From: Morinoia aosen
Taxonomy: Eukaryota; Arthropoda; Malacostraca; Amphipoda; Talitridae
Direction: 5' to 3'
Length of the DNA: 64,000 bases
Assembly: GCA_030386875.1 (NCBI GenBank)
Contig: CM059562.1
Coordinates: forward strand, 44,599,757 to 44,663,756
Part shown: one piece after another, positions 19,214 to 62,638 of the stretch
Numbering within the stretch: the stretch's first letter is position 1
Layout of the letters: each line of letters starts with the position of its first letter
Notes under the pieces: model-generated
What the model was told of the DNA's origin: nothing
The model's input: the letters and a program-made list of their open reading frames with translations, nothing else
The model's database searches: none
Position numbers and translations under genes: made by a program

Positions 19214-20485
19214 ACGAAAAACATTCGGCAGGTGTCATCAGAAGATTATTGAAATTAGAGGTAAAGTAAAAAAATATGCTTACAAATTAGTAATTAGTAT
19301 TTATTTTTCTTTCTATTTTCAGTGTTTTTTGAAGGTAATTGGGTAGTATTAACGTTTTTTAGAATATTAGCTTTTTACTTCTGCAAAATATTCTGTAAAT
19401 ATTCTGCAAATTGTTCTGCCAAGTATTCTGTCAGTATTGCAAGAGCAATACTGACAATCAGGGCTCCCACTGAAAATGTTCAGATAAACCTGGATTGAAC
19501 ATGAAAAGAAAACAAGATTCGTTAAAAATAAACGTAGAAGTGTAGTTTTAAATAAGAAAAAAGTGAAAGTTAACGTACTACCTGTATTTCCTCCTAATTC
19601 TCTTCTGCAGCGCAAATTTCAATATTAAGTCGACTTTTCTGTTGTGCAAGGCGCTTTTCATTACGCTGGTGGCATACTCTGTTGATGACATCTCGTACCA
19701 ATTTCAGCTTAGGTTTCCAACCGTGACAGGTTTTTCATTCCTTCCATTATCTATTCGTCTTTGAAAGACTGCGTATCCCTCTTTTTAGACATCGTATTTG
19801 GAGGGCTAGCCATTTTGAATACTAGTGTGGCAATAATATGAAAATTTGAATATTCAAGAATATTAACTTTTAGACATTCATTTAAAGGAATGCACGACCA
19901 GTTTTACGATCAAAATGCGTGTCATCTCACTGCAACGTGCCAAGCAAATCGAAGCAACGCAAGTAGAGCGCCGGCTATCCCTGGCTTGGCCGGGCTTGCA
20001 AGTTCGTAAGATACTCGTTCGTTACGCGTTTTTAAGGTCGAGAAACAGATTGAACACGTTCTACCCCATCCGATAGGCGTGGTGTCGAATCAGATATTCA
20101 TTTGCGTACCCTGTTAAAACAATAATTCCTAACTGGATTATTACATTTACTTCAGTTAATGATGAATTCAGTGTCTGACTTGAAAAAAACATATTTAGCA
20201 ATATATCAAAAATTAAACCTAGCAACCTAGGAGGGATCGAAAAAGAAGATCTGCTGGGTGGAAAAACCCAGGAGTTTGAGCCCTGCGTGACGATTGCTGT
20301 CTCTCGCGAAGGAGCGTTGTATTGAGCGGCAATGTAAAAGCATGCCGGTGTGCACTGACGCTTAATCCTCTCGTGGGAGGAGCTATAGGAAGTTCACCGT
20401 CGCTCCACACAGCTAGTGTAAAATGAGCTTTAGTGATAAGTTGCGGATCTTCTAGTATAAGGTCTGTGGTGGAACTCATATTAGT
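19214..20485. other. No supportable gene; one degenerate hAT-like end
   Basis: CAGGGCTCCCACTGA at about 19457 differs by one base from the CAGGGCTGCCACTGA end of the hAT family seen from 31415 onward, but no partner end was found. A few imperfect ATTCTG repeats lie at 19380-19440. The remainder is mixed AT-rich and GC-richer DNA without motifs. Confidence 0.35.
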
Positions 20486-23236: not shown

Positions 23237-23383
23237 CAAGGCCCCGACACTGTCGGCCCTCAATTTCAAGTTCAAGTTTAAGTTGAGGGCCGTAGTGCCC
23301 GAAACGTTCCGTTCCGTAGTGCCCGGAACGAACCGTTCCGGAGTTTGAACTTGAATTTGAAGGCCGGCAGTGTCGGGGCTTTT
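23237..23383. repeat. Inverted repeat around a minisatellite block
   Basis: AAGGCCCCGACACTGTCGGC (about 23240-23259) plus a TTCAAGTTCAAGTTTAA tail is mirrored by a TTGAACTTGAATTTGAAGG block and GGCAGTGTCGGGGCTTTT (to about 23383). Arms are about 42 bases with a roughly 60-base loop of minisatellite units. It could be a small foldback element or a rearrangement point. Confidence 0.7.
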
Positions 23384-29061: not shown

Positions 29062-29440
29062 AGTACTTACTCTAATTATTTCTAACTACCTACTACTAAC
29101 TCTGCTCTACTCTTTTCTATATATTCCAATCTATCTCTGCTCTACTCTCACTGGCCACATGTCTGTTAGTTGAGTATATTGAGTTAGAGATATCCAAGAG
29201 GGTAGTGGACTATTTATTCTATGTTATTTTACTGCTATGTACCCATTGTTATGTACTATAGATGTGTAGTTATGCCCGGTGATGATTACTAGGTTGCTAT
29301 GTCTATGTTGGATCTAATCTATGTGATGTTATTGCTATACTAACATTTTGGTGAAGCCTAGTGTGAAATTGCTATGTTCTGTGGGATAGGACACTATCTC
29401 TAATACTAATAATATCTAAGTTAGGTTACGACAAAACGGT
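29062..29440 (+). repeat. Right half of the second DUF4806-promoter copy
   Basis: Matches 3345-3600: CTACTCT...CTATATATTCCAAT, CTCACTGGCCACA and TATCCAAGAGGGTAGTGGAC, the latter aligning with the splice donor region of the first copy (CAAGAGGTGAGTG). Here the donor is changed to GGTAGTG. Similarity fades after about 29440, where the minisatellite starts. Confidence 0.7.
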
Positions 29441-29755
29441 TCCGAAGCACGCCAAACAAACCGTTCCGGGGTACCCAAAAACAAAACGTTCCGGAGTACC
29501 CGGAACGAACCGTTCCAGGACTAATAGAACATACCGCTCCGAAGTAACTGGAACATATTGTTCCGAGGTACACGGAATGAGCCGTTCCAGGACTAATAGA
29601 ACAAACCATTCCGAAGTACCCGGAATGAAACGTTCTGTTGTACCCGGAACGACCAGTTCCGTGGTACACGGAAGAAGCCGTTCCGGGGTACACAAAACGA
29701 ACCGCTTCAGGACTGAGAGAACAAACCGTTCCGAAACACCCGGAACTTACAGTCA
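29430..29755. repeat. CGGAACG/CGTTCCG minisatellite, block 4
   Basis: Units such as GTACCCGGAACGAACCGTTC with a 24-base spacing fill this block. On the minus strand they yield an artificial VPGTSERF-like repeat. With blocks 1-3 it brackets the LINE and copia insertions. Confidence 0.85.
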
Positions 29756-31414: not shown

Positions 31415-31689
31415 CAGGGCTGCCACTGAGAATTTTTTTCCCCCAAATTTGCTCTAGAAAATCCCCCATATTCAGCCAGTTTCCCCCAAAATAAATAAAA
31501 ACAACATAATATGGTATACATTAACTAAAAACTGACTTTACTTACTGCGTATTTAGTCCACATGTTATTCTTCCTCTACTCCAGCTTCTATGGTCAGCGT
31601 TTCTTGGTTGTTTTGAAGTCGCCTCTTGTACATAGTACTTGTTGTTCCGCTTTGTAAGTCTTTAATCAATGCATTGCTCGGCTCTCATC

Positions 31690-33599
31690 TCGTGCAGTCA
31701 GAATTACTTTTTGTTACGGCTTGTTTAGCCAAGATTCTTGCAGCAACTGTTTGTGATTTTAATGAATTAGTGTTTCTAGTTTAAATATTATTCACTTGTG
31801 AAAATATACGTTCCACACAAGCAGACGAATGTGGTAAGCAGGTTAGATTCGTCATAACATCGGAGAGTAGTGCAAATTTGAGATTATTCAGACTGTCTTT
31901 AATGGAACTTAAATCGTACCAGTACCGCGGTACAATTTCACTGGAGATAGGTAGATCTTTCGCTGTGTGTCGAAAGCTTCTCCACTGATCGTCGAGTTCA
32001 TCCACTTGTGCTGGTGGTACCAAATTTGGGAAAATACTTGGAACATGAGTTATTGATGGCGGCGAAAGACTGAGGTTTGACGCAATGTTCGGATCAAGAA
32101 TATTTAGCTTGGCAATCACACTATCTTCGTTGAGAGGGAATCTTTTGCTTATTTGAACGCAAAGTTCTACTAGAAACATTAAGCAGTCGTGCTTAAATTT
32201 ATTTAAGGTATCCGATGGCAATGGGTGACGAATGAGTTCAGTCATTGCTGATCCTTCAAGGTAAATATTTTCAAGAGTTTTATGAAAATATTTGTTCGTT
32301 GGGTCGATGTCCGACACTTGAATTCTCTGAAGTACGGACTTCTTCACGAAACAACCGAGAATAGCTTTATATTCTGTTGCCACAAACAAATGCAATCTGT
32401 GTAATCGAAAGGGCTCTGACTGGAATTCCAAATTAAGGGAGTTCACTTTCCATTATCATGAGTTTTGTTCCACAATTATTCAACGTCTCATATACACGTC
32501 TAGCTCCATCAATTTTGTCCACCTTCGTTTCGCTTTGAAAATACAGTAAAAGCGCATCATAATTCTCAATAATAATACTGATCACATTTTCTCGACTAAG
32601 CCATCGAGTTTGCGCTAGTTTAGGAATCTTGTGCTTTGGTGCTGAGACTGATTCTTGGATCATTTCAAAATCATTTTGACGCTTGCTACTATGGCTGAAG
32701 TATGAAATCAAATCTTTCAAAAAAGCCTCTAAATAAGAAGGCAGCACACCTACCGCATAGCTGGCACACAAAGCAAAGGAATGGCAAACGCATCCCATAA
32801 CAAACACTGATGGCACGTCGTCTCTCAATAATTTCTGAAAACCATTTTTGACTCCCATCATTGACGAGCAGTTGTCCGCACCCAAACCAATTATATTCTG
32901 AAGAGGTATTCCCCTTTTCTCAAATAAAGCTTTGAGCGAAGCATAGAGACCGGACGCAGTACCATCTTCAACAATTATTGTATCGAGCAGCCTGTCAACA
33001 ACGTCTAATTTAGTGTTATCGAAAAAACGGACCATGATGGCCAACACTTGTGTTACTGTTATATCAGTGCGTTCGTCTATGATGATGGACAATTTCTGCT
33101 TTTTGCATACATCATCTAAAGATTTTCTTTCATGAAAAGCAATTCCATCCTGAATTACGTAACTTAATTTAGTCCTTTTCATTGTCAACTTGTGAGCTAT
33201 TTTACTGTCAGGGTAAATTCTTTTGCCCACCGATAAGAAGTAATCGACACTCGAGAATGGAAGGTCATGTTCGGCAAAGTATGCTGTAAGAATAAGTTCG
33301 CTTTTTGCAATTTCTTCAGATTCCTAGGATGGCTCTTTTACCATAAATTGCGCGATATCAGTGCTTGTACTGTCTACTATTATATTTTTCTGATGTTTTT
33401 CTGTGATGCTGTGCTTGATGAGCATAGATTTATAATAACCTTTAAAAGAAATATTGCAGCACTTACAATAACCACAGTTGGGTTCATTACTATCTCGTTT
33501 CAGCCAGGTTTTGAGTTCGGGTACACTGAGCCATTCATCTCTGAATGACTGCGTGTAGAGCTTCCGTTTCTTAGAAGACGATTCAGTTTGGTCACTCAT
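31690..33599 (-). pseudogene. hAT transposase of element 1
   Basis: Starts at 33599 with a BED-type zinc finger region (SFRDEWLSVPELKTWLKR, then CGYCKCCNISFKG and a His pair HSITEKHQK). It continues SSVDYFLSVGKRIYPDSKIA in the same frame after a TAG near 33323. The RNase H-like core shows LSIIIDERTDITVTQVLAI (first Asp), IGLGADNCSSMMGVKNG (second Asp) and VFVMGCVCHSFALC, with the CxxH seen in hATs, then QTRWLSRENV. A frameshift near 32445 moves the C-terminal half into another frame, ending in the dimerisation motif LPHSSACVERIFSQVN. A TAA near 31777 precedes the usual last block (LKSQTVAARILAKQAV). With two nonsense codons and one frameshift it is inactive, though catalytic residues remain. 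Confidence 0.9.
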
Positions 33600-34160
33600 T
33601 ATGAGGAATGTAATCAGAATTCGGAAAAAATCATCGCTCTAACATGAAATAAATATATAAACACATTAACTAATAAAATGAACTTAGTTGTCATCCCTAT
33701 AACGTTTTGCCTTCCAAAAACAAAATAAAAATTCAAATTATGAGAATCCCCAGTGCGCAACATCATGTTAGGGAGTTGGCCTCTATAACGTCAATAAATG
33801 ATGACGAAGCGAATAAATGTTAAAAGTGGTAACTTTGGAATAATGCAATCATAAATGTCAACTCTAAATTATTCCAAGACAGCAAAAAGTTTTAAATTTC
33901 ATAAATGTCTAAACCGTAACGCTACGAATTTGTATGCAACTCTAAAAAGTATAAAACTATGGTTAATAAGTCACCATGGTATGAAGAAAATAAAGACTAG
34001 GCATGCCACACATACGTAACATTTTTAAATTTTAAAGCACACAAGTAATTAATTTTCAAGAAATTCTGCGTTCCGCCTTTTTAGCCCAAGACAATACGCC
34101 AAAAGTATCTGAATTGTCACATTAATATATGACTAATTACTACAATTTTACCCAATAATA

Positions 34161-35106
34161 TGGTAAATGTTGAGGACTTGACCATAATTGATTTTCGAAT
34201 TTTCGATGCCTAATTAATGGTAATCAGATCAAAAGAAACAAGTTTTCTTCAATGCACTTTCCGGCGGAAACGATTATTTTGAAAGTTATAGCGGTAAATG
34301 AGTTAACGGAACTCCAGTGTTTAAGGCGGGAATAAATGAATAAGGGAAGCATCACCCTATTACAAACGTAAAGAGGTCGGGTCGAGAGGGGTAGCCACAG
34401 TTCTTTTAGTGAAAATTGGAAATCAATTGAAATTCTACTATGCATAAACGAAATTAATGAGATGACGAGTTATATTGTCGATGCGAAAGACTGAACTCGA
34501 AAGTTCCCAGATACGTTGAACCGACGATATACCGTCATCTCAGGGCTGCCAGTGACGTCGAAGCAGCGGTAAACACTTTATTATAAACTTAAAGAGGTTG
34601 GGTCGTGAGGAGTAGCCACAGTTCTTTTAGTGAGAAATATCAATAAAGTGAAATTCTAGTATGCATTAGTATAAATACTGAGATGAGTTCATTTGTCGAT
34701 CCGAACGAATTCATTCGAATGCTCTCAGATACGTCGAACGTTCGACGTAATGGGTCGGTTAAAACCTTTCTTTATAATTTCCACTAAAAGAACTGTTGCT
34801 AACCCTCACGACCCAACCTCTTAACGTTTGTAATAGGGGGTTTGCTTCTCTTCTTTATTTTTTCTAGCGAAGTCGGCTTGGTTGGCGCGCGGCAACGCCT
34901 GTTTACTTTCACGTCGGACCGCGCGGTATATTTTTCCCCGCCTGAAACACTGGAGTTCCGGTAACTCATTTACCGCTATAACTTTTAAAATACTCGTTTC
35001 CCCCGGAAAGTGCATTGAAGAAAATTTGTTTCTTTTGATCTCATTAACCATATTTCGGCATCGAAAATTCGAAAATCAATTATGGTCAAGTCCTCAACAT
35101 TTACCA
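34161..35106. repeat. Palindromic array of diverged units inside hAT 1
   Basis: The outer arms TGGTAAATGTTGAGGACTTG (34161) and its complement ending at 35106 pair over about 250 bases. The arms include GAAGAAAATTTGTTTCTTTTGATC on the right and AACTCATTTACCGCTATAAC, both mirrored on the left. The middle holds further copies of a unit containing AAAGAGGTTGGGTCGTGAGG and CCACAGTTCTTTTAGTGA: direct copies at about 34365 and 34585, and an inverted copy at 34780-34850. A lone hAT-like end CAGGGCTGCCAGTGACG lies at 34541. It resembles a composite foldback element. Confidence 0.78.
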
Positions 35107-36069
35107 ATATCAGTTATTGAAGGAAATGTAAACTAAAAGCCATTCGTTTAGTGCAAGGAAGCGAGAAACACATGAACAGGCGGTCACTGTCACAGCGAAG
35201 TTCAGCGAACTGAGTCAGAGCTGTGAGCGACTGAGCGTGGATGAGAGCAGGGCTGCCAATGAGACTTTTACAAAAACCCAAGATCATGGGTCTAAAAAAC
35301 CCAAGATCTAAAATTAAAACCCAAGATTACCAAAATACAAAAAATACATGATATTTAAAGTGTTTATTTTCTTTCTGTGCGGACAAATTGCAATCATAGG
35401 TGGAAAAACATAAAAAAATATTATTACCAAGGATAAAATGCCAAAAACTACCAACTAAAGCAGATTTTTGCTATTTTAGCAAAAAAACTACCAGCATATT
35501 ACTGTTAGAAAAAGATACCGATAGTTTCAAGCTCTTAAGCATTAAATAATGTTTCTACGTTATTAGAGCACACGAGTTCGATGCGTCGAGGTTAATGGAA
35601 GCCATTTAATTTCAACACCTATAATAAGACAAGTTTGTTGAATAAAAGTTGCGCATTAATTTATGGCTTGTTATTAATATCCTGCAATACCTTTGACGGA
35701 AAGTTCCTAACAAATTGTAAAAATGAGGCTTTTATAAATTTAATGAAATAACTACTGTGGATGGCTTGGCGTTAATTTTCATCCGAAAATTAAATTGCAT
35801 ACCGTTTCCTCAACTGTACAATGCTTGCTGGCTTTTTGCAAAACTAACAAAAACTTCTATAATGGGGTCAGAATTTTAGAGAGTAGAGATAACATTGGCT
35901 CCGATGTAGTATCCTACTTCAAGTTTTAAAGTTTCTTTAAGTCATTTGAACTCGAAAAGTAAGGAGTTTTTGGCAAATTATCATTCGTGAAAATCGATTT
36001 ATTTTGAGTTTTCTTCAATAAGTTGAAATATGTTCGAACAAAAACACCTTGTATGGTACAAAAAATACA

Positions 36070-36270
36070 TATACTCACGTATAATTATAATTACATGTTA
36101 CATCATATTTAGATTAGGTAACATTAGGAGTACATTGCCCTCAATCATTTATTTCGACCAGGGACATGGGTATAACAATACTCATGTGTGTGTATCATCT
36201 AAGTGTATTAACTTTAAGATATTTTAAACACCAATGATGGTACTGTTGTACCATCTTTATTGGAAATAAA
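36070..36270 (+). repeat. Dispersed repeat copy, partner of 42665-42870
   Basis: The segment with ACTCATGTGTGTGTATC, TTAACTTTAAGATATTTTAA and CCAATGATGGTA reappears in reverse orientation at 42665-42870. It lies in the interior of hAT 2. Its family is unknown. Confidence 0.75.
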
Positions 36271-36289
36271 CTGTGTTTCTTTTTTCTCT

Positions 36290-36740
36290 ATTCTACGTTT
36301 GCGAGATTAATATTTATTTTATCAAAAGCTGTACCATCTAGGATTACCTAGGTAAGTTTCGTTCGCTTTATCGACGGTTTTTCGGCTATTTTACTATCAG
36401 GAAATGCAAGCTCACAGACCTCAATGTTGGCAAAGGGTAAATTATGTGCTACGAAATAGACTGCAACCTTATCTCACTCCTCGCTGTTTGTTGGCTTTCA
36501 GTTGTTCTCTTTTTTAAGATATTGAGTGATACTCGAGCTTCCTTTAGCAACTGCAAATTTTTTCATGATTAAAAAAAACTTTATACTTCAACGACCTAGA
36601 CTCATTTTTATTTTTTAGCGTCACTTTGCATGCCTTGCAGTAGGTAACCGAGTCTTCGTCGTTGCAGTCATGCTCAAACCACTTTTTTTTATTCCGTTTC
36701 ACTGGCCCATTCTTCCTTGAAGCAAAGAGCATTCCATTTG
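36290..36740 (-). pseudogene. N-terminal hAT transposase fragment of element 2
   Basis: Minus-strand reading gives NGPVKRNKKKWFEHDC...YCKACKVTLKNKNE, a BED-like zinc finger. After two TGA/TAG stops it gives YFVAHNLPFANIE and FPDSKIAEKPSIKRTKLT, clearly related to PDSKIAHKLTMKRTKLS of element 1. The catalytic core is absent. Confidence 0.75.
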
Positions 36741-37595
36741 CTCTTCTTTGCTGGCATAATTTCTTCAGAGACTTTTTTAATTTGAATGAACAGAGTTCAT
36801 TAGAAGATAATCCCTTCAAATTTGAGTTTAATCGAAAAATGCAGATTTTCAAATCAAACCACCGGCGAAAATCACATAGCAAATACAATAACGCGACTGG
36901 CACACGCCACACACACACTCTAATCAGTTTTTTTTACACAGTGGCGCGCGCTCAGCAGGTTGTGATTTGTGACAGGTCACCTTTATGCTACGAGTTTATA
37001 CGCTAAGCGCTCTTACGGGTTGTGACAGGCATGCAACGCATTTCTATCGCATAACGAAACTTTTAAGCGCAATAAAAAGAAGGCATTTGTACGTAATAAT
37101 TTGACTGAGAAATTTCTGTGTACCATGATTGAAGAATGAGGCTCAAAACCCAAGATTATCAACATATTCGAAAACGAAAACCCAAGAACCCAAGGTACAT
37201 CGTAAAAACCCAAGATCTTGGGTTAAAACCCAAGCATTGGCAGCCCTGGATGAGAGTCATGAGACTGCATCGAAGCATAATTGTCGGTGAAAGTCTGAAC
37301 GAGTTCGATCCTCGTTCAAACTTCATTAGATCGCCTTTCATTCGTCGTTAAAGAGGTATTTCCTGTTCTGCACCATGACATCTTCATTCGAATGAACATA
37401 CGTCTGTGTGTAATTGAAAATTTTTCAAGTTACACAATATTTACATGAAAAATAATTCCTAGCCGTATTCCCCAAAATTTAGTGGATTTTATGAAAGTTT
37501 CCCCCATTCCCCCAGACTACATGCGTTTCCCCCAGATTTAGGGGAATTCCCCCATCAGTGGCAGCCCTGGCCTCACTGCATTTCTCCAGTAACTC

Positions 37596-39225
37596 CAGGG
37601 CTGCCACTCTAGATATTTTATATCTAGATCTAGATGTTTTTGCTTAAGCCTAGATGTAAAATTTGGAGCCTAGATATTAGCTATAAAATCTAGATAGTTT
37701 TTTCAACGTGCTAGATATTTTCTAGCTAGAATACAATTGAGCTATATATATGATAGATTTCTGTAAATTCGAATTAGGAATTCACTATAATGGTAGGTTT
37801 CTTCTTCAGTCGTATTATATTTGTCAATTTGCTTCACTAAATTGTTTGAATAGTGAACAACCACATTCTGATCATGTTATGTATAGATTATGAACCCCAC
37901 CTAGACGGCTATTTCAATGTTTTTGTGCTGCCATAGTGTAATTTCTAATTGTGATCATCAGGTTCATAAGCTAAAGCACACTATCTCCAATTGCTAAACT
38001 AGTGATGATGTCAAAAATCATGGAATAAAATCCACACACATTATCAAAAACTCATTGTGGCCTCATTTTGACGAAAGACTGACCAATGATATTTGAACAA
38101 TGAGTTCAGTTTATTGTTGGATGGGAGCAATGATATTTCAAACATGAAACTGTTTGGTGTATCAATTATATACTAAGTTAGAGTCATGCATCTAATAAAG
38201 TCGAATCAACTTACTTAGTAATTGCAAACTTATTAAAAGTGATGCAGATATACGTTCTGACAGCCTTAAAACAATTGTTGATAAGTATGAATCTGATTAT
38301 CTGAGCATTGATAATTGCAATGCAATAGAGACTGACAATGCAAGTGTCATTAATTGTTGGCATCAATAATGAAGTTTATGCCAAGTTCAAAGAAGAAAAT
38401 TTATATTCAACATTGATGAGATGTGTATGCCCCTCATTCCAACTTGCAATGTCCTATGCTTCTGGTAAATGTTTACCAAGGAACGTGGAATTTTTTATTG
38501 CAGAAACTCATAATTGGTTTGAAAATTTTTTTTAGACGATGCCAATTCAATTAATTTAATGAATCAATTAATATTGGTTCAAATCCATTAAAAATTCCTT
38601 CAGCTTGCATAACTTGATTGTTGCAGTAAAAAAAATTGTTGCTCAATGGCTGGATTTATGAACACATTTTGAAATTGCAAGGCAAAGGGAAACTTGCTAT
38701 CCTGCTGATGTATTATTCGAAATATATTCTGATGAGAAAAATCTTGTACTATCATTTTTTTGCAACTGATCTTAACAGAGGTGCAAATAATTAGTAAGTT
38801 ATTTGAATATAAAAATGTAGATAAGACATATTTATTGGATGAAATGCTAATGTTCCTTAAATCAGTTTTTACTAAATTACTCCTTCCTACTTGCAACGCT
38901 GATTGCTACTTGCTACTATTTGGAAGGACTACTTATTAGTCTTTCCTACTTGCAACACTCGTGAAATTGAAGAATATTTGGGTACTAAGCTTTATTAGGA
39001 TAAATATCAGGATACTAGATAATTTAAACAAGGATAAATGGCCTATTATAAAACAATTTATGGTATAAATATTCTCATGTGCTATTTTTAAACTAACTTG
39101 TTATTATTTATAATTAATTTAGTTCTAGATATATTTTTGGATGTTTTATTTTCAAATCTAGATGTTTCTAGATATTTTTTGAGGTCAAACTAGATTATTT
39201 TGGTCAAACAAAAGTGGCAGCCCTG
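37596..39225 (+). mobile_element. hAT element 3, 26 bases from element 1
   Basis: Ends CAGGGCTGCCACTCTAG (37596) and AAAGTGGCAGCCCTG (39225) are flanked by the perfect duplication AGTAACTC (37588-37595 and 39226-39233). Both subterminal regions are packed with CTAGAT words (ATCTAGATCTAGATG; TCTAGATGTTTCTAGATAT), a third motif type for the same terminal sequence. It lies in or at the end of an intron of the MULE gene. Confidence 0.92.
38224..38900 (+). pseudogene. hAT transposase core fragment of element 3
   Basis: Plus-strand pieces in shifting frames read AIETDNASV (second catalytic Asp region), LMRCVCPSFQLAMSYASGKC (here the usual CxxH is C-P-S, so the His is lost), then NLIVAVKKIVAQWLDL and HFEIARQRETCYPADVLF. 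Several stops and frameshifts interrupt it. Neither N- nor C-terminal ends are recognisable. Confidence 0.75.
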
Positions 39226-39281
39226 AGTAACTCACAGTCGCTCACAGTTGAAGACGAGCATCGAGGGTGAGAAGTTTTTAC

Positions 39282-42029
39282 CTCCATGATTGGTGTAGCC
39301 TCTCTAACTGCGAAATGCGGCACATTTCTTGAAGTTCTTTCGGCACTTCAACCGCACAATTATCATTGCTTAGTTTATTTTTAAGCATCATTCTTTTCGT
39401 ACGAAGACTTCCTTCGGGTATCGATCCTTTACCGTGACAAAAAATCTCTGCATACACGCAAGCGTAAACACCGCAGTCGTAGTTGTTTGTCTGTACTGGA
39501 ATATCGTTAGGCTTGTAATATCTCTAATAATTTTTTGACTTCTTGACCATAAGTGTTTTCTCTAAGGTACAAAAAAAGTCGCATAGAGCTTCAAAATATC
39601 TAAACTGGGGGAGTGTAAGCTGTCCAAATAGATGAAATACCGCCGTAAGCGATCTATTATAATGAGTGTCCAATGTTCGTGAGCACAAACAGGAGCCGAA
39701 ATAAAATCTGCTTTAGTCAGGTTTAGCCTCTGTCCTCGTCTGATCATGGTTTCTGACGTTGGCCCATAATGTTTTAGGCACACGTAAAATAGGCTATCAA
39801 GTAGAACTGGTTTCACATCTGCATGTTTAATAAATGAAGACTGAGTGCACTGAAGAATGAATTAATTAACCACAACATCGTCTAGCCACTGTTTTTGATC
39901 CAAGGTTTTCAAACTCCTAAGCGTAATTTTGTAGTTCCCAATTAGTCTTCCAGGCTTTTGGCTGGAATCTTCTTTCTCTTCCGAGTCGTTCGTATCACCA
40001 TCTCGCACAGTTCTTGAACATGCAACCGTAAGCAGATCGGCTCTATAAAAGGGAGTATACTACTAGCTGCTAGTGTAAAGAAAGAAGGGCGTTCGCCGCT
40101 GCTAATATCATGACATGATTGACTTTGGTTACTGGTTTCGCAGGATTAATCTTTTGATAATTTTACGGCAAGAGAATCTGACGCTGGGATCATAGAAACT
40201 TCAGATTTTGTTAAAGAGCCCTTCCTTAATCGCCTTTTCTTTACTTTCCCTACTTTGCTCAAGTCAGAAAGAGCAAATTCACGTTTTACGTCAAATATTT
40301 CAACCTTTGAAGCCATTGCTGCTGCAAGAACATGAAGACATTTTTTTGGAATTGAACAAGAACACCTGAGTGGTTGCAGAGTGACAGCATTTCTTACGTT
40401 ACCGAAACCGTGTACGATGTAAGTACATGTTTTTCTATCTAATGACACACGATCATTCTGAACAAGATATTTTGGCATAGCTTCTTAAGTAGAAAAGGAA
40501 CTTTTACTTCGTTCCGAAGCTGCTTGTTTGGGGTAAATCTCAATTTCGTCACAGACTATTTTGACGATGTCTTCTGGATTTGTACTTCCAACAGGCAGAC
40601 TTTCTTCTTTGATTGGGTTCACCGTTTTAAAGAACTCATCCTTGAGAACCCAATTTCCCTTTCCTTTTATGCCTCTCGCCATTTCAGTTACATAATAACA
40701 TGTTAGGTGGTAGAAGGCCGGCACCATTTGATCGGCTCTAAGCTCCTTACGCTTTGTAATCCGTTTAAAAACAGCATGCATTGATTCAGAGCAATTGGTG
40801 GTAATGCCAGAAAGTTGATCGTTGTTCACGCGCAAATCGACCAGCCTTCCCATAATTGTTGATATCAAGTCTTCTTTCAATTGCGAATCAAAATATTTGC
40901 AGAAGCTTTCAGTCCATTCAGTTTTACATTTCTGGTAACGAACGCGGAACATTTCATCATTCTTTGATTCAAGTAGATGCTGCAAATAAATTGTATATGA
41001 TTTTATGTCATCAGTCGATCCATGATGTTTCTTCACCCAAGTTTTTACGTCTTGCTTGATATGATTCCAGCAAAATGCTTAGCTACAATGTAGAGCGACG
41101 TTCTTCAAAGCATTTCAGTTACCTCGTTCCTTGTCTGTTACAATCACAACTTTGGTGGGATTAATTTCTGGTACAGCCAATTTGATTGCTCGAAAAAGAA
41201 TTTCGTGAGTCGCAGTGTCTCTTTTGTGATGCAATAAAAACGCAATCGGGAAACAAGGATTGCCTTGAAAGAAAAGGCAACGCGCAACCAAAGAGCTGAC
41301 ATAGAAGCCGCCCAGATTGTACGTAGTATCATATGATGAAATGATAGGTTGTTCTTTTGATGCCAGTCTTTTCCGTTCATGTAAAAGGTTATCATTAATT
41401 AAAAGGATTCTTAAAGCGTGAAGAACAGTAAATTCTTTTATAAAATAATTTGTTTCCGAGTTGACCATTAATAAGGTGTTACAATCAAGTAAATCTTATC
41501 GCTGTCTTTTTCTGTATGTATACATTGCATTTTCAATTTGTTTCAAATTTTTCGGTTTTCCATCAGCGTCAAAATTGGATGGGATCTTAGACGTAACTAT
41601 TTCTGAGTACACAACAGACGGCACATCTTTCTTGGATGCAGCTTTGGTCAAGGTTGATTTCATTGTTCTTCTGTATGATTTTTGAAGGTTGTTCTTCCTA
41701 TTCCCATTAGGAGCTCCTTTCTCCTCTCGATCATCTTCACCAAAGTAGTGGATGAGATGTCTTGCGACACTTTGATCAACTAGCGTGTAGCAGTGTTGTA
41801 GAAATTGACAACTCTTCCCACCAATCCGTCTGCCGAAGTACTATTTCTTGAGCCATGGATTTGTTTTTGGGAGGCCACGAACACCGCAATTTGTCCAGTT
41901 GAGCCCATCTGAAAGGTAGTCCAAGCATTTTTCAGGATTATCCTTATAACTGTGTAGGAAAACATCGACGCTAGCCGGTTTCGACGGTGACTAGATGGAG
42001 CACAGATCTTCAGGTGTTTCCAGCAACAT
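39282..42029 (-). pseudogene. Mutator-like (MULE) transposase with SWIM finger and Ulp1/C48 peptidase
   Basis: The coding sense runs from about 42029 leftwards. N-terminal region: VDVFLHSYKDNPEKCLDYLS and NCGVRGLPKTNPWLKK. MULE core: SYDTTYNLGGFYVSSLVARC (first Asp), VVIVTDKERGN (second Asp), FCWNHIKQDVKTWVKKHHG and NCSESMHAVFKRITKR. A SWIM finger follows at about 40360-40320 (CSCSIPKKCLHVLAAAM; C-x-C...C-x-H). Further on a Ulp1-type peptidase spans about 39920-39330: QWLDDVVVN, HEHWTLIIID (His), IYLDSLHS (Asp) and QTNNYDCGVYACVYAEIF (Gln and Cys), so all four catalytic positions are visible. In-frame stops occur near 41850, 41500, 41140, 41080, 40490 and 39860, with frameshifts near 40140 and 39560. 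The C-terminal PHD finger is at 31195-31414. I infer a nuclear DNA-cutting transposase fused to a deSUMOylase-like peptidase. No terminal repeats were found. Confidence 0.85.
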
Positions 42030-42269
42030 TTTCTGAATTTCAATGTGAGTAACCTTTGAGCTGCGAGTAATTAGACTATGTTTTTGCTCTGTGAAAACAA
42101 TGAGAAAGTTTGCAAAAATGATGCTTCTTCATACCTGTATAGCAAACCAAAATCACATGAGAAAATATTAGATTGAAAAAAAAATTTGAATTGAAATAGC
42201 TCATAATTCAGAATGAGAATTGATGAAATGGGAGTCATTGAAAGTAGAGATGGATGAATGAATGACACG

Positions 42270-42560
42270 CCATGATACGACTGTTATTATTATCTTCCTT
42301 ACAATTATTCTTTAAATTATTGATAATAGATAAATTATTATTTAATTGTTATTTTAAATTAAATAATTTATTAAATTTATGAAATTAAATAATTAAAATA
42401 AATTGAATAATTATTTTAAATTAATTAAATTATTTAAATTATTGATAAATTATTATAAAAAATTATTGATAATTATTGATAATATTAATAAAATATTAAT
42501 AATTATTGATAATAGGTAATTATCAAAATAATGGTATTATATTACCATTAGAATAGAACC
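42270..42560. repeat. AT-only low-complexity tract (TAAATTATTGATAAT)
   Basis: Nearly pure A/T with repeated ATTATTGATAAT and AAATTAAT words. No coding signal. Such tracts can be replication-slippage products. Confidence 0.8.
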
Positions 42561-42664
42561 AAGTTCGAAACAAGTACGCCTTTTTTTCGTCTCTGTTCCA
42601 TCTATGGCAACAGTTTCAAGCATTGCATTATTTAAATTTTCCTGTTCATCATAATAATGAATGA

Positions 42665-42870
42665 AATGAAAGAAATATTTTATTTCCAATAGAGATGGTA
42701 CAAAAATACCATCATTGGTTTTTAAAATATCTTAAAGTTAACGCACTTAGGCGATACACACACATGAGTATTTTAATACTCATGCCACTAGTCGAAAAGA
42801 ATTGATTGAGGGCTATGTAATCCTAATCTTGCTTGATCTACATTTGACGATACACATAATGATAATTATA
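42665..42870 (-). repeat. Inverted partner of the dispersed repeat at 36070-36270
   Basis: Reverse-complement match including GATACACACACATGAGTAT, TTAAAATATCTTAAAGTTAA and TACCATCATTGG. The copy at 36070 lies within a hAT, this one outside any recognised element. Confidence 0.75.
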
Positions 42871-43059
42871 CGAGACAACACAATTTCATGGACGATGCAT
42901 TTTCATTGTGGGTTGAGAATACCTTTGACAATTTACGTATGAATGATATAAAATTTCGTAATTCTTGACACCAGGAAATGATATTTGAATTGTTTGTTTC
43001 GGAAGATGTTCAAAAATGTCATTTTAAGGAAGCACGAAAAAAGATAATATACATATATA

Positions 43060-43260
43060 TAAAAGCATGAGGACCATGAAAATTACAAGATTTGTATTTC
43101 TAGTTAAACAATTTTAACATAATGGTCATTAGTTGATAAGCATTATATTTAAATATCAATGGATGATCACACAATAAATGTATAGTTTTTTTACGTGAAT
43201 GCTTTACAATAAAAAAGGGATGACGAGTTAGGTAATGTTACAAGTTGAGAGTGAACAGAA
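43060..43260 (+). repeat. Diverged direct repeat flanking the BEL element, left copy
   Basis: GTCATTAGTTGATAAGC...GATGATCACACAATAAATG is similar to GATCATTGGTTGATAAGC...GGTGATCACACAACAAATT at 54120-54185. The two copies bracket the BEL/Pao element, each 200-400 bases from an LTR and in the same orientation. Confidence 0.55.
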
Positions 43261-43302
43261 AAAAAATTATCTCTAGTTAAAATGCCAGTTGTCAGTCAGT
43301 TT

Positions 43303-43410
43303 AGTACACACATATGTACATATATACATGTAAGTATATACACATATACATGCACATACATACCTACGCACATACATACACCTAACACGTAAACATACAC
43401 AAATACATTT
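43303..43410. repeat. ACATATACATAC microsatellite
   Basis: Imperfect ACAT/ATAC repeats. The comparable region right of the BEL element (54255-54330) has a similar but more degenerate purine-pyrimidine alternating tract. Confidence 0.8.
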
Positions 43411-43439
43411 CTATGCATCGAGGAAATCACAATATAATG

Positions 43440-44030
43440 TGATGCCTCCCGGCTACAAGACGTCAACAAAGTCCTCAAATGGTAAAGGGGCACAGAATTC
43501 ACATGAATGCCTGACACCCGAAAGGGTTCGGTAACGCTTTAAGTAATCATTTAAAATCAGAGCATGGCAATAAAAGGGGGTTCTCACCTTCGAAAATATT
43601 TGTTCAGGTGAACACTTCTCAATGTAGCCGGCTGTCCATGAACCCAAGGGTCCAAGGTAGCGAGGATCGAAAGGTGACCGGAGACCAGCGAGACACAAGA
43701 TTTAGGTGCACCCGAGGCCGCGGTTGGAACCTGTCTGACGTGGCAGTCCGAAAAGACCGCGCACATCGGCTTTCATCCGAATCTGCTGTATTGGCTTAGG
43801 ACTCGGAAGAAAAAGCGCAGGCGTACTTTAGAAGTTTGGAAATACGCTTGCAACCGAAGATATGAGGAACCCCCACCACCGCTCTGCTATTCGTTAATTA
43901 CTTGTTTTATTGCCTTTTAGGTTAATTAATTTAACAGCAGCCTAAGACCCCTTACTGCGGAAGGCCATTAATAATGCCTTACTAAGCCCGCAGAGGATCC
44001 CGGCTTTGAGCAATGGGTAGAATTTCCACA
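43440..44030 (-). repeat. BEL 3' LTR (element sense)
   Basis: Starts TGATGCCTCCCGGC and ends GAATTTCCACA on the plus strand. About 95% identical by eye to 53392-53979. Short frames inside are not genes. Confidence 0.9.
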
Positions 44031-45018
44031 CAATCCCGGCAAACAAAAATCCGGAGTTTTCATTTTGAATTTTCCGTTACATAGATTTTAAATACACAAA
44101 ACATTTCATTATATTCACAATACTTTACTAGAGGAAATATAGAAAGTACTATCACTTATTTTATGCGCATATACAATTTTTAATATAGCAAGATAAATTA
44201 GTAAGGGAAATCAAAGATGACCTCTCCTAATTAAATCAGCAAGTTTGCTACGCTGCTGTTGAGCTGCCTGCCGTTTAGGACGGGCAGCTGCCTCCATTTC
44301 AAGTTCTTCGGGAGATTCCGAAGAATCGTTATCATAAGAGTATTGCTGATCTCCTGGGTGTTCGATAGAGAGAGAACTACCCTCATTAGGAATGGGACTC
44401 TCAGGAGCTTCAAAATAAGGATGTAACTCCTCACCAGAGCTTCCTTCTGCACTTTCCCCACCCCCCTCCTCTGAAGCAGTATCAAAAGCAGCTAACTCCA
44501 GAGGGTAAAATAGAGAAATTTTGACGGCAGACTCAGAGCTATCAGCTTTATTAATATTAACAACCCGGACTTTACCATCGCGGCCAGGTTGCAGCGCGCT
44601 GATGCGGACCTAAGTGCAAAACGGCCTAGGTTTTATAGGATGCCTTAATAAGACAACCTGACCTACTGATAGAAATTTATTATTGTGAGGCAGAGATTTA
44701 AGAGGGTATGGACCTCTAAGACTGATTAAATATTGCGAGTACCAGAGTTCCCTGAACCTGGCCACCATTACGTCGCGCTTTTCAAGCGCGGAGAGCAAAC
44801 TCTCTCGCTGCTCGACGCCTTCGGCTTCCAAGTCAGGGACCTCGTCGGCTAGAATTCAGGAGGGCGTCCCCCTTCCGGACCATTTTGTTTGTTATTGGAC
44901 CTAGTGCAATGAAATTTGGTATACTGACAGGAAATGCATTTTGGAATTGTTTATCTTCTATGAAAAAATGTAATTTTCTTCAAAGAAAACAAGATATTCA
45001 TAGAAAATGAAATTTTTT

Positions 45019-45342
45019 TGGGGTTTTTTAAAAATCTTCTCCTCCGACAGTTTTTGAGCTACAGTGATGATTTTGGAATCATTGGATGCGAAAAGACAAG
45101 GGCTTTTATAGAAGCTAAAATTCGTTCCCCAAATTTCCTGTTTTCATTAAAAAATGGAAAAAATTCTAGAGCAAGCTCTGTTTTCAAAAAAGTGTGGATT
45201 AATGACGTCCTAACTTATGAACAAAAAATAGTTGTGAAGAAATTTTCATTTTTTATAAAAGCCCATGTCTTTCCACATCCAATGATACCAAAATCATCAC
45301 TGTAGCTCAAAAACTGTTGGAGAAGAAGCATTTTGAAACCCC
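45019..45342. repeat. Inverted repeat (foldback) inside BEL pol, arms ~92 bases
   Basis: The left arm (45019-45110), with CAGTTTTTGAGCTACAGTGA, TGATTTTGGAATCATTGGATG and AAGGGCTTTTATA, is mirrored by 45252-45342 (TATAAAAGCCCATG, CCAATGATACCAAAATCATC, CTGTAGCTCAAAAACTGTTG). The spacer is about 140 bases. It lies within the roughly 830-base insert (about 44866-45700) that splits the C-terminal domain. The 45018-45305 open frame is a by-product. Confidence 0.82.
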
Positions 45343-45869
45343 AAAATACATTGTTTACATTATAAGCAAAACAAAGAAACATAAACAATTGTAATTAAAT
45401 TTTTTTAAATTTTTGGTTCAGGTTAGACCCCTGAAATCATTAAAGAGTAATCCAGAGACATAGGAGATGACATAGCAACATCAAACCGTGAAGAATGTGC
45501 CAAGGAGGAGGTGAAACATGATAAAATATCCCTTCCCCCTCCCCTCCCCCCCATTCTTCAAACTCCCGTAGCGGGCGAACGAGTGAACGTACGAGTCTCA
45601 TTTTTTCACAGTATGTACCTGACTTATGAAACTTCTCATAGCATTAAAAATCCCACTTTTCAAGAAATCTCAAAAAAACATGGATTCCTATGAGGGACGC
45701 TCTCCTCAAAGAGTTAGAAGAAGGATAAAGTTGAAGGAATTGTATAGGCATAATAGGCAAAATTGTGTCCCCCGTCTCGGTGTAGGAAAGAGGACGTCGG
45801 TTAAGATTAAGAGTGATTTCAGAAATGGCAGTTAAAAAGGATGAATATGAATACGTGCTCCGGCCAAAG

Positions 45870-46255
45870 AGCTTATACAAACTGTCTTTTATACATACAT
45901 ACATATACATACATATACCGGGCTTATCCTCCCTATGGTAGGGTAGCCGACAGCAGGCCACAATCACCACACTTAGTCACTAGGAGGCGAGAGAGGCAGC
46001 ACTGGCCAGGACCAGCAGGAGCCAGGATCAGCCCAGGACAACCACCAGGATCAGCAGCAGCCCAGCACAACCACCTTCCACAGTCAGGCCCGACAGCCAC
46101 AGCTGGTTTACCCCGACCGCTTCATTGACTGCAGCCCCTCCCCCCGCACATGACAGGTCAACCCCATCACACGCGGGCAGCTTCCAGTAACGCGTCAAAA
46201 ATAAAATTACCTCCTTATACACTGCCCCCACTCACTTCTGTCCGCAGCCATCCCT
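45870..46255. other. GC-rich insert with ACAT microsatellite in BEL pol
   Basis: This stretch replaces continuity of the integrase/DUF5641 frame. It begins with ATACATACATACATATACAT repeats, then GGGCTTATCCTCCCTATGGT and a CAGCAG/CCAGGACCAGCAGG-rich part. A mobile insert (possibly a SINE with a microsatellite end) is likely, but I cannot name the family. Confidence 0.5.
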
Positions 46256-47320
46256 CTCGCCCGCCGGGATAGATTCAAATAATCGTTCCCAGATCGCACC
46301 AAATTGAGGACTATAGATTGGGATGGTTTTAAATTTAACGTTAAAGGTTCTGAAACGTTCTTCATACGAGGATGAAGTTAAGACTTCTGACAATAGGTCA
46401 GAAGCGGCTAGGAAAGTTTTAGCATTGTCAGAATAAACTGTGTTAGGTACGCCTTTTTCATTCATGAAGCGAATAAAAGCAAAACAGAATTCCTCCAGTG
46501 TCATGGAAGGAGGAAGCTCTATGTGAATTGCTCTAGTTTGGAAACATGTAAATAATAATAAATATACCTTTTGTTTATGACCAAAAGGGTTTAATACCAA
46601 GAAATGAACTGAAAAGTCCATTCCCGTGGTGGCGAAAGGTCTTACAAAATTAGTCCGACTGTCTGGCAACGCAGGCGGGTCGGGATAGGAAAAGGCTTTA
46701 GCGTTCACCCGCTTGCAAACTATGCACTTGGATAGAATGCTGCGAACTGTACGCTTACAGCGAGGTATCAAATAACCATCCAACTTTAGTTTTTGCACGG
46801 TTGATTCAACACCTAGATGATTTAGAGATTTATGAGTGTGCAAGATCAGAAGGTAGGTTAGCTGAGAAGAACTAGACAACAGAATAGGGTTTCTAGTATT
46901 GTAGTCTATAATTCCTCTGCTAAAATTATGCGGCTGCTAGATCTAACTAAATTGTGAGAGTCAAGAAACAAGTTGAAAGATCTAACAAGCAAAGGCGGAC
47001 GAGGATCCTTGTTCTTCAAGGCCTGTATCTCGCTGGCAAAATGCTCTCTTCGCATAGAGAAAAATAGATAAAGAAATGGTCGCGTTTTGGTCTCTCCCGG
47101 ATCTGCGCGCTTCCAGATTGATACAGCTAAATACCTTCTCTACCACACCTAATAGTCTGGGGTAGGAGAAAAAGCGCTCAAGCTCCACAATCGAAGCTTC
47201 ACATGGGGGAGCGACATTAACGGCAACACATGTGTCTGAAATAAATTGCTGAGGAATACAACCTAGTGACCCTTTGGCCACTTATCTCTACTGTCTCTTA
47301 TCCAAGATGGACCTTCTAAC

Positions 47321-48640
47321 CAGGGCTGCCAGTCAACTTTTTCCAAAATCCCCAGACTGACCCCTGAAATTTCCCCAGATCGGGATAAAATTCCCCAGGT
47401 ATTACCAAAAGTGATAAATATGATATTTATGTTTATCTTAAATACATTTTCAGGTTTATTCACAATTTTTATCATCAATTCCAGCACGAAAGTCAAGAGA
47501 TCTTAATTTTTTTAACATTTTCAGTCAATCTTGGTCTCTTTGTTAGACAGCTTAGGTCAGTGATAAAACTTTGTTCAGAACCCCACTTGGCATACTTTGC
47601 ATTATTTCTTGCCAATCACTGCTTAGCAAGAAGGAGGTGCTCGGCTGTTTCTGGTCTTAAGGAATTGTTGGTTTTTTATCCAGTTAAGTAGAGAAAATAC
47701 TTTTTAACAAATGGAGACGAAAGCACAATCGAGAAAAAGCATTAAATATGGAAGAATGCCAAATTAGGGTTACCCAAGCCATCTTTGATTTCCCCTAATG
47801 ATTTCCAATACTGAGGAATTGAGCATTCCCTTACTGATAGGTCAGCTGCAATTAGAACCACACGCTGTCTATCTTATTTATATGAGCTTCATCAACAAGC
47901 GAAGTAAGTGCCACTTAATTTATTGGTCATCATTGCGCGTTTCCGGCTTGAAAAATTGTGCGATGTCAACTATCGACTTCATAAGCCCATAACTTTTTAT
48001 GTTTTTCGGATTCCTACCGTTTCAATAGGGCAGACTTGTTCACACTTTTGAACATAATATATCAGCACTTACGACTGGTACGGTTTCGATCTTTACCTTT
48101 CTGTAGCCAATCTTTGAATTCGGAATCGTTCAACCAATCATCTCTGAATATTTAACTGTACCACATTTTTTAGGTGATTTTATGGTGTTTAACTACAAGC
48201 AGATAAATTAATAAGGACAAAACACCGCTATCGGTAGCGCTAGTACCACAGGCGTACACTAGAAAAGACATTTAGCACCTCAGCAGTAATAACGAGTGAC
48301 AGAGCCAGACGCTGCATCAGGCGCTGTAATTGCTCCACTGCGCGCTTCGTTCGGATCTCGTAAAAACTTGTATTGTTCAACCATGATGCGTTCAAGAAAC
48401 TGACTCAGGCCTCCTGTACTGATAATTTGATCAATTTCTAGATTGTATTTTAGTTAGTTTAGTTGTTACTTGTTAGAAGCAAATATCATTAAAGCAATTT
48501 TAGTTTTTGCATACAATATATTGTGAAACACCTCAAATTCCCTATAGATATTTCCAGTTTTCGTTTCGAATTCCCTAAATCCCCAGGCCATGACCGAATT
48601 CCCAAGATCTGGGGAAAATTCCCAAGGTGTGGCAGCCCTG
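47321..48640 (-). mobile_element. hAT element 4, nested in BEL pol
   Basis: Ends CAGGGCTGCCAGTCAAC (47321) and GTGTGGCAGCCCTG (48640) are flanked by the perfect duplication CTTCTAAC (47313-47320 and 48641-48648). Subterminal regions repeat CCCCAGATC and TTCCCCAGG on both sides, a fourth motif for the same terminal sequence. Confidence 0.92.
47540..48175 (-). pseudogene. Decayed hAT transposase ends of element 4
   Basis: On the minus strand the right part reads SRDDWLNDSEFKDWLQKGK (BED-region start, close to SFRDEWLSVPELKTWLKR of element 1). The left part reads RPETAEHLLLAKQ and LARNNAKYAKWGSE (C-terminal end of hAT transposases). The core between them is deleted. Frameshifts and stops are present. 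Confidence 0.7.
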
Positions 48641-48648
48641 CTTCTAAC

Positions 48649-60609: not shown

Positions 60610-62638
60610 CAGGGTTTCCACGCGAGGCGACTCTAATTACCCTAGCTGAAGGGTGTTGATTACCCCAGATTACCCTAAAACAGCTAATCCTGACCTATGA
60701 TCTATTAATCAACTAAAAGGTAAATGGACTGTTTTCCAGAGCTTTGTCAGTATGAATAAGTCCTGTGTTACATACTGCATGAGCGTCAGGAGGGAAATCC
60801 AGTCGAACGACGTTAGAATGCTGGTTTGATATCCAGAAAATATCACGTACAAGATGTTTGCCAAAAACCTGTCGAATTAATTTTGATGCCCGCTGTTTTC
60901 CAAGGCGCCTTTTTTTCTGCGACTCTTGATCTGGGAACGTTGTTTTCATCAAACTAAAAGAGGCTCACACAATGAGATAGGTGGTGCTTAGCTAGAAATG
61001 CACAAACTTGCAGTTCCACTTTACGAGCACGATTTTCGAGAGGATCACTGGAAAGCACGTAGCTGGCAACTGATGGTTTTTTTGCCACCATGGATCGTTG
61101 TTTGTGTCGCTGAGAGCATGTGACGCCTGATCTCCGATTTTCCGCAAGTAACATAGGTTCGACAAACCTTGCAATATTCCACATCCTTTTGCTCTGTTGG
61201 TTTTGAGAACTTGACCATCCCTCAAACTCAGGTTCCGATGTCAACGAATCTTTAAATTTCTGCTGGTAGTTTCTAGCTTTCAAGTGGAGCTCTCCTTTTT
61301 CCTAGGTGGTGTCGTTGGCTCTTCCTCGCTCGGTGCGCGATCATCTGCAATGTTGCAAGAAATGCAATAATATGTGTATTTAATTATTAATTATTTAATT
61401 TTCCATCCATTCACGCACTTCAGCCAATCTTTCCACATGCTCAATCTAACCTAACACTTTGATTCACTCTTTGCGATGACTTTCTGGCTTCCCTCACACA
61501 TGACCTTCGTCATATCTTTTCATAACGGATTTTATCCAATCTTGTTACACCACATATGCTTCTCAGAGAGACTTCGCTGCAATCACATTCACTTATCAAC
61601 TCATAAAGTTGATCTTAAAGTTATCAAATTTCTTCATTTCCGAAGGGCGAGTGAGGAAATTCAGAGGTTTTTTGGAAAAAAAACTACCTTGCCTTTATTA
61701 ATATGCATAAACTTTCCTCAACACTCAGTTGTAGAACCCCTAGTGCTTCAATTTTGGTTGACGGAATTCTAGGCATGATCACAGCTATATCAAATTTACG
61801 TCCGTGCTACTGCGCCTAAGAAAGAAAGTGAGAATACAAACATATATTGCAAGTTTTAAGTCGACAACTGTACTCTTTTGTTTGTATGAATTTTTGTAAC
61901 TTATTTTATAGCTTCTTCCTTTCTCATTTAGCACTTTTTGTAACTCGAAGTGTCAAAGAACCCTGTCTAAATTTTTTTGTTTGCATCGCTACAATAACAT
62001 ACTTCTTCGGCATGCAACATGGCTAAGAAATAGGACGCCTTCCATCTAATTAGCTGGCAAAATACCGGCGCTGTGAGGTAACTCTGCTGTTAATTCAATG
62101 ACTATAACAAGAATGAACCTATTAATTATTTCTACGATGAAAGATATTAGCTGTGGAATTTAACAATACAACAAACATACCTGTCAATATTCTGTTGAAG
62201 CTAGTGCAATCAGAATAGGACAGTGACTTTCGTCGACTGGCTGTTGCTGACACCGATCGAGTTTTTATTAGCAAAATGCAACTCAGAATCATTTGTCAAA
62301 ACGAAGAGGACAAGAGATATTATGGCTTCGTCTCTTGACGCCGTCTTTCGTGAAGGATACCTAATGACATTCAAATATGCGACACTAACCACAACAGCAG
62401 TGCAGTTTTGTGAACACTAAATTCTGACCCGTTTCATTACAGTTCGTTGAAGTGGTAACCAGTAGGGTGCTTGCATATTGGCTTTCAATTTTCTAATTTT
62501 CGTAGATTAGGCGGTCACTTCCTTCACTGAGCTCTGATTACCCTAGATTTGCCCATATTTTTCACTACCCTAAACATTACCCCAGGGTACCCCTTATTAC
62601 CCTAAACTGGGGTAATTACCCTGCTCGTGGAAACACTG
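60610..62638 (-). mobile_element. hAT element 5 (CAGNGTTTCCACG end) with perfect 8-base duplication
   Basis: The left end CAGGGTTTCCACGCGAG (60610) and right end CTCGTGGAAACACTG (62638) are inverted with small changes. CTCTGCCC flanks both sides (60602-60609 and 62639-62646). Subterminal regions at both ends repeat ATTACCCTA and TACCCCAG words. It carries the N-terminal part of a transposase on the minus strand. It belongs to a different hAT lineage from elements 1-4. Confidence 0.9.
60713..61290 (-). pseudogene. N-terminal hAT transposase fragment of element 5
   Basis: The minus-strand reading starts KARNYQQKFKDSLTSEPEFE and continues SVASYVLSSDPLENRARKVE, CAFLAKHHLSHCVSLF. After a frame change comes MKTTFPDQESQKKRRLGKQR and ASKLIRQVFGKHLVRDI. 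This follows the BED-region / linker order of hAT transposases (compare the A-Y-F-A-E-H-D-L-P-F block of element 1). The zinc-binding Cys pair is lost. No RNase H-like core is present. Confidence 0.65.

Follow-up and report, generated by a model that had tools for sequence, protein, structure and literature searches.

Five hAT elements carry variant spellings of one subterminal word on a common position lattice

Do the words repeated near the ends of a transposable element change independently of the places where they stand? A 64-kb stretch of the amphipod Morinoia aosen genome (contig CM059562.1; hereafter the window) raises this question. The original prediction described four hAT elements here (E1 to E4), all ending in CAGGGCTGCCA, with subterminal motifs said to differ completely. 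The coordinates, tips and perfect 8-base-pair (bp) target duplications of these four proved exact, but the set was not complete: the window holds five hAT elements, the fifth (E5) having another tip, and E2 lies inside E1 and interrupts it. Nor do the motifs differ completely: they are variant spellings of one 10-bp word on one lattice, with a shared core, orientation and near-identical positions. The five elements are:

31415..37569, minus strand: E1, hAT element with tips CAGGGCTGCCA and 8-bp duplication GCCTCACT, its transposase on the minus strand.
35248..37248, minus strand: E2, hAT element nested in E1, with tips CAGGGCTGCCA and duplication GATGAGAG.
37596..39225, plus strand: E3, hAT element with tips CAGGGCTGCCA and duplication AGTAACTC.
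47321..48640, minus strand: E4, hAT element with tips CAGGGCTGCCA and duplication CTTCTAAC.
60610..62638, minus strand: E5, the fifth element, with tips CAGGGTTTCCACG/CAGTGTTTCCACG and duplication CTCTGCCC.

We turned the elements transposase-forward (E3 as it stands, the other four reversed) and derived each consensus word from seven homologous sites per element. In this orientation the 10-bp words are TTGGGGGAAT for E1, CTTGGGTTTT for E2, CTAGATATTT for E3, CTGGGGAATT for E4 and CTAGGGTAAT for E5. Any two have 3-7 of their 10 letters in common, and a core recurs: CTNG in four of the five (TTGG in E1) and GGG in four of the five. The words at an element's two ends are mainly direct, not inverted, and lie on the same strand, together with one constant reversed copy. 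When 200-bp ends were shuffled, the excess of the best repeated 7-mer was reached in 0/300 shuffles for E1, E2, E3 and E5 and in 1/300 for E4, bearing out the claim of arrays at both ends for every element. E4 has the weakest array (11/300 shuffles for 6-mers, 26/300 for 8-mers); the motif originally written for it (CCCCAGATC) has just two occurrences, one on each strand, and a shorter core is needed to make the array. For E1 the 6-mer result carries no information, since the filter dropped two-letter words such as CCCCCA.

With word sites called at a threshold of 7/10 letters and positions measured from the tip, the gene-5' ends of all five elements have words starting near 15, 35, 55 and 95 and a reversed copy at 23. 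The gene-3' ends have words near 35 and 58 and then at 78 or 68, E1 being shifted by 3 bp. The arrays are:

37466..37555, minus strand: E1 gene-5' array; sites at 15, 35, 55, 63 and 95, reversed at 23.
31437..31489, minus strand: E1 gene-3' array; sites at 32, 55 and 75 (the lattice shifted by 3 bp), weaker at 43 and 65.
37145..37234, minus strand: E2 gene-5' array of CTTGGGTTTT; sites at 15, 35, 55, 63 and 95, weaker at 69, reversed at 23.
35273..35325, minus strand: E2 gene-3' array; sites at 35, 58 and 78, weaker at 94 and 103, reversed at 47.
37609..37720, plus strand: E3 gene-5' array of CTAGATATTT; sites at 14, 35, 55, 75, 95 and 116, weaker at 29, reversed at 23 and also at 29, 64 and 89.
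39125..39199, plus strand: E3 gene-3' array; sites at 36, 58, 68 and 101, weaker at 89, reversed at 64 and 74.
48536..48626, minus strand: E4 gene-5' array of CTGGGGAATT/CTTGGGAATT; sites at 15, 35, 55, 63 and 96, reversed at 23.
47346..47398, minus strand: E4 gene-3' array; sites at 35, 58 and 78.
62537..62624, minus strand: E5 gene-5' array of CTAGGGTAAT; sites at 15, 34, 54, 66 and 93, reversed at 23 and 48.
60636..60678, minus strand: E5 gene-3' array; sites at 36, 59 and 69.

On the window strand, the right 130 bases of E2 contain CCC only at 100, 68, 60, 40 and 20 and in the tip; E4 has it at 101, 68, 60/59, 40 and 20, and E1 has CCCCC runs at the same five places. Across the five elements we counted 40 exactly coincident pairs of word positions, against a mean of 4.9 and a maximum of 14 in 5000 random placements, and 63 pairs within 1 bp, against a mean of 14.8 and a maximum of 30; every word match, weak ones included, entered this test. 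Because we had chosen the words ourselves, we repeated it with each element's commonest 5-mer and a free shift of up to 4, which gave 26 at the 5' end and 17 at the 3' end against maxima of 18 and 12, neither value being reached in any of 3000 trials. We also scanned the window for the lattice without regard to letters, as self-similarity at the lattice offsets (tolerance 1 bp, up to 2 at one site; 112137 positions kept). The top four loci are the gene-5' ends of E2, E5, E1 and E4, in that order. With a rigid lattice, E2 ranks 1, E1 2 and E4 10 among 127740 positions. High scores at 42.3-42.5 kb come from an AT tandem repeat, and the locus at 53125 lies in AT-rich sequence and has no tip.

The words are far more alike within an element than between elements. 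Over the seven homologous sites, identity between sites of one element is 0.82, compared with 0.58 for the same site across elements (0.64 without E3, 0.62 without E3 and E5), and shuffling the element labels at each site reached 0.82 in 0/5000 permutations. The element signal is held by the letters upstream of CCC (0/2000) and little by the AGAT letters (6 and 76/2000); CCC itself is common to E1, E2, E4 and E5. The original prediction had asked whether motifs are mixed in one element: whole words are unmixed in all five, although word position 3 varies within E4 and within E5. The gene-5' spacers between the words are near random, with an identity of 0.30-0.37 against 0.25-0.28 when shuffled (43 columns). 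Since words are alike within elements and spacers are near random, positions and orientation have persisted while an element's letters changed together. A common cleavage end with diverging words, as first proposed, describes E1 to E4 but not E5, which combines another tip with the same lattice and GGG core; tip and word therefore vary independently.

Perfect 8-bp duplications and short inverted tips starting with CA, one criterion for the hAT superfamily, were found in 5/5 elements. The exact tip CAGGGCTGCCA occurs 9 times in the window, as eight element tips and a solitary copy at 34541, and 10 matches with at most one mismatch compare with 0.44 expected. A scan for inverted pairs starting with CA[AG] (at least 10/13 matching, 100-9000 bp apart, 8-bp duplication with at most one mismatch) returned 8 pairs, of which the 5 with a perfect duplication are E1 to E4 and E5. 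The other 3 look like chance, with one duplication mismatch each and similar pairs in Markov controls: five such sequences gave 1, 0, 1, 1 and 1 pairs, among them a single perfect-duplication pair with only 10/13 tip matches. The Ac and Buster families of hAT elements have the typical target consensuses nTnnnnAn or nnnTAnnn; compared by eye over these five sites only, the former fits CTTCTAAC alone and the latter fits none.

All five elements also retain pieces of a transposase:

33599 to just past 31781, minus strand: E1 transposase relic, with two in-frame stops and a frameshift.
36318-36772, minus strand: E2 transposase relic (tblastn, best 9e-22).
38200-38649, plus strand: E3 transposase relic (best 2e-7).
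47987-48163 and 47502-47849, minus strand: E4 transposase relics (best 1e-12).
60867-61280, minus strand: E5 transposase relic, weak (best ~1e-4).

The stitched E1 protein has 265 relatives at E ≤0.001 among 6606 candidates, the best about 55% identical; those named among the matches listed include molluscs, crustaceans, an echinoderm and insects. The best 120 of the 265 (P0001-P0120) served as queries for the relic searches in the window, and the E2, E3 and E4 relics are also matched by the E1 protein itself. Many full-length relatives in this set sit on contigs of only 2-4 kb, about one element long, as if repeats had been assembled alone. The E1 relic contains a C2H2-type finger and matches to DUF4371 and the hAT dimerisation domain, both below the Pfam cut-off; the latter (PF05699) has an E of 0.02 in the E1 fragment and lies above the cut-off in 3/5 relatives scanned. 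Profile comparison matched Hermes, the hAT transposase of the house fly, at 2.4e-7, and a profile of 21 relatives matched Hermes 6dww at E 3.2e-13. In this match the ERxFS stretch is strong and the IDxxTD and TRW stretches are weak; these residues have catalytic roles, hAT transposases having an RNase H-like catalytic core and, at the C-terminus, a dimerisation region that includes ERxFS. A fold model (mean predicted local distance difference test score 60.5) had no structure match at E ≤0.001, the model being too poor to be informative. By sequence comparison, hAT superfamily membership is supported, and the five are probably decayed copies from related hAT families, each with its own largely consistent word; this agrees with the families first proposed, the E5 relic reaching only ~1e-4.

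Where short stretches of the transposases can be compared, their identity has fallen to roughly 25-45%. In trees, where such short fragments are placed only roughly, E1, E2 and the E4 N-terminal piece fall nearest P0001-P0011 and the E4 C-terminal piece nearest P0036. The E3 piece is nearest P0086 and the E5 piece nearest P0077/P0084, members of the other main group when 77 full-length relatives are placed in a tree; with the fragments added, the E5 piece pulled P0077/P0084 across the root. The expectation that motif classes follow transposase clades is borne out in part across the five elements: the third gene-3' site, 20 or 10 bp from the second, follows the split of E1/E2/E4 from E3/E5, but word similarity does not clearly do so. 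The N-terminal BED-type zinc finger typical of hAT transposases was sought as a C-x2-C...H-x4-6-[H/C] pattern, which 72/77 relatives of at least 600 residues have in their first 140 residues. We aligned 38 full-length relatives over the helix before the first zinc histidine: the histidine and L at -3 are kept, N at -7 and K/R at -6 are nearly kept, and positions -4 and -1 vary (2.71 and 2.59 bits). Several other finger positions vary more, with entropies up to 3.36. In PMC10368747, the base-contacting residues of Hermes are S66, N67 and R70, ahead of H71. Because -4 and -1 are variable in the relatives and lie where Hermes makes these contacts, they are candidate specificity positions.

We consider it probable that the words are BED-finger sites held in position by the transposase-DNA complex, their letters being rewritten together. 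The 10-bp sites, mostly a GC core with an AT-rich tail, would be bound by the element's own transposase through a BED-type zinc finger. At the gene-5' end the finger would meet at least five sites in one direction and a reversed copy that forms a palindrome with the site at 35, and at the gene-3' end three or four sites oriented likewise. A transposase acting as a multimer would dictate where these sites stand, many of them about 20 bp, or two helical turns, apart and near-exact close to the tip. We infer that when the finger's preference shifts in a lineage, the letters at about nine fixed sites give way to new ones, most likely site after site, with positions and orientation unchanged. By analogy with Hermes, the complex may assemble mainly on the gene-5' array, where the reversed copy at 23 faces the site at 35, the gene-3' array being secondary, a view that fits the tighter gene-5' positions in E1, E2 and E4 and the 3-bp shift of the E1 gene-3' block. 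Recognition switching on a fixed frame in this hAT lineage, with geometry near base-exact, all words of an element rewritten together and no dependence on the cleavage tip, is a conclusion towards which we lean slightly.

Several observations weigh against such a frame. Departures from the lattice are seen in the E1 gene-3' array (3 bp), in E5 (1-3 bp) and in E3, which lacks a site at 63 but has sites at 75 and 116. Because of its five-C run, the register of E1 is known only to within 1-2 bp, and some word matches are weak or are additional reversed copies. The rigid lattice ranks E3 77 and E5 1553 of the 127740 positions. The letter-free scan places the E3 locus tenth, 2 bp off its tip, below loci that include a tandem repeat, a microsatellite-like sequence and the interior of E3 itself; AT-rich positions, E3's exact tip among them, were left out of it. 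That scan is a consistency test and not an independent one, since the lattice was derived from the scanned elements, and its tolerances were set with E5 in view. As for the protein, a Pfam scan of the E1 N-terminal piece found no BED domain, and the window relics are too decayed for finger residues to be linked to words. The basis throughout is five elements, one copy each, in one 64-kb window, with decayed or partial transposase genes. Finally, 10/10 spacer pairs lie slightly above shuffled, so common descent contributes.

If the positions were merely inherited from a common ancestor without insertions or deletions, words and spacers drifting unconstrained, the spacer excess in all ten pairs and the tip common to E1-E4 would follow. 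Drift, however, predicts that words are as alike between elements as within them, contrary to the gap seen above, and the spacers are near saturation while the words inside each element are near-uniform; we regard this reading as extremely improbable, common ancestry being part of the picture and not a full account. Copying, by slippage or gene conversion, could also make words uniform within an element, as proposed for the target repeats of VANDAL elements, which are Mutator-like and not hAT. The VANC targets of Arabidopsis do evolve via tandem repeats in the excerpts of PMC5735166, yet here 10-bp words keep conserved distances with unrelated spacers between them, whereas tandem expansion would drag spacers along and shift positions, and an element's word is present at both of its ends. 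Copying is thus a rather unlikely source of the pattern.

The words could instead be host-factor sites or a promoter or silencing signal, and arrays of other transposons do serve anti-silencing, as VANDAL/VANC shows (PMC5735166, excerpts). Against this, the positions are fixed relative to the tip at both ends, the gene-3' end included, as expected of a transposition complex, and the Hermes and Herves transposases bind subterminal repeats (excerpts of PMC10368747 and PMC3143072), which makes a host signal quite improbable. A further proposal concerns the driver and is compatible with BED-finger sites held by a transposase complex: co-resident families may have escaped cross-mobilisation or host silencing through the divergence of their words. 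Five spellings lie within 64 kb, and with the tip shared by E1-E4 the words could discriminate, but the divergence could be older than the co-residence, and we hold this driver to be possible, if doubtful.

The putative complex can be compared with known systems. Octameric Hermes transposase uses its BED domains to bind the left-end repeats, of which two form a quasi-palindrome; an AT-rich region must follow the site, and a 1-bp displacement of the first two of these repeats impairs or abolishes cleavage (PMC10368747). Like the elements here, Hermes has short repeats near both tips and a palindromic pair near the left tip. Its left-end repeats 2-7 are antisense and its right-end repeats 1-5 sense (PMC10368747); if these directions are read from each tip, as we interpret them, the repeats would lie on the same element strand, as in the window. 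Hermes differs in having the site AAG(T/C), against five spellings of a 10-bp word on a lattice common to families here, and in its asymmetric arrangement at the two ends, the right-end repeats not being seen bound (PMC10368747, as excerpted). Herves, a hAT element of Anopheles gambiae, likewise has a repeated subterminal motif at both ends that its transposase binds, but is one family with the motif CG/AATTCAT, and the excerpts on it compare no positions between families (PMC3143072). In Arabidopsis, VANDAL/VANC comprises related transposons with diverging arrays of target words and proteins that changed targets (PMC5735166); those targets change through gain and loss of tandem repeats and are bound by an anti-silencing protein, whereas here positions are fixed and spacers unrelated. 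Diverging target words with changing proteins are thus already known from VANDAL/VANC.

Among the literature matches listed, judged by title and the start of the abstract, none of 20 with the string CAGGGCTGCCA (out of 38 that contain it) concerned hAT elements, and none described a shared lattice with diverged words in hAT elements, few subscription journals being covered. Protein searches of viral and genome contig collections confirmed no relatives, and DNA-pattern searches of the viral contig collection gave no match. In the genome contig collection a DNA-pattern search had 11 matches, in bacterial and archaeal records, which we attribute to chance: each has one tip and no transposase match.

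The joint change of specificity in a transposase and about nine scattered sites still calls for an explanation. A frame of conserved positions in which words can be exchanged would separate geometry from recognition, so that site lists become comparable column by column and orthogonal pairs of transposase and array predictable. New elements could then be sought without a known tip or word, and the lattice would predict which transposase cross-mobilises which element. If the model is true, the word sets of many families would form a natural code table in which finger residues (such as -4 and -1) correspond to DNA letters, and unknown elements could be detected by the letter-free lattice.

A sixth, half element was left out of all statistics:

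19459..19731, minus strand: E6, a fossil half element with tip CAGGGCTCCCA, its other end not found.

It holds a C-terminal transposase relic at 19588-19731 (best E 6e-10) and weak, degenerate words at 35, 58 and 79 from the gene-3' tip; a supposed N-terminal relic at 19754-19813 was not significant (E 4.4). Inside E1, 34161-35106 is a long inverted repeat with 177-nucleotide arms, 92% complementary, and further inverted arms within; it contains the solitary CAGGGCTGCCA at 34541 and is perhaps another nested element. We rejected that solitary copy as an array-bearing end, as it has no array and sits in the inverted-repeat structure.

Retrotransposon pieces flank E4 on the minus strand (46232-49084), namely an integrase zinc-binding domain at 46232-46879 and a Pao peptidase A17 at 48764-49084, both above the Pfam cut-off; E4, lying between them, may have inserted into a Pao element. 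Weak matches to a MULE transposase and a SWIM finger, both below the Pfam cut-off, lie at 39305-41468, and the adjoining 39305-39520 resembles, by eye, a Ulp1-type protease. A 24-bp tandem unit of similar appearance, containing GGAAC/GTTCC words, forms several separate arrays at 20666-20803, 23290-24049 and 29434-29700.

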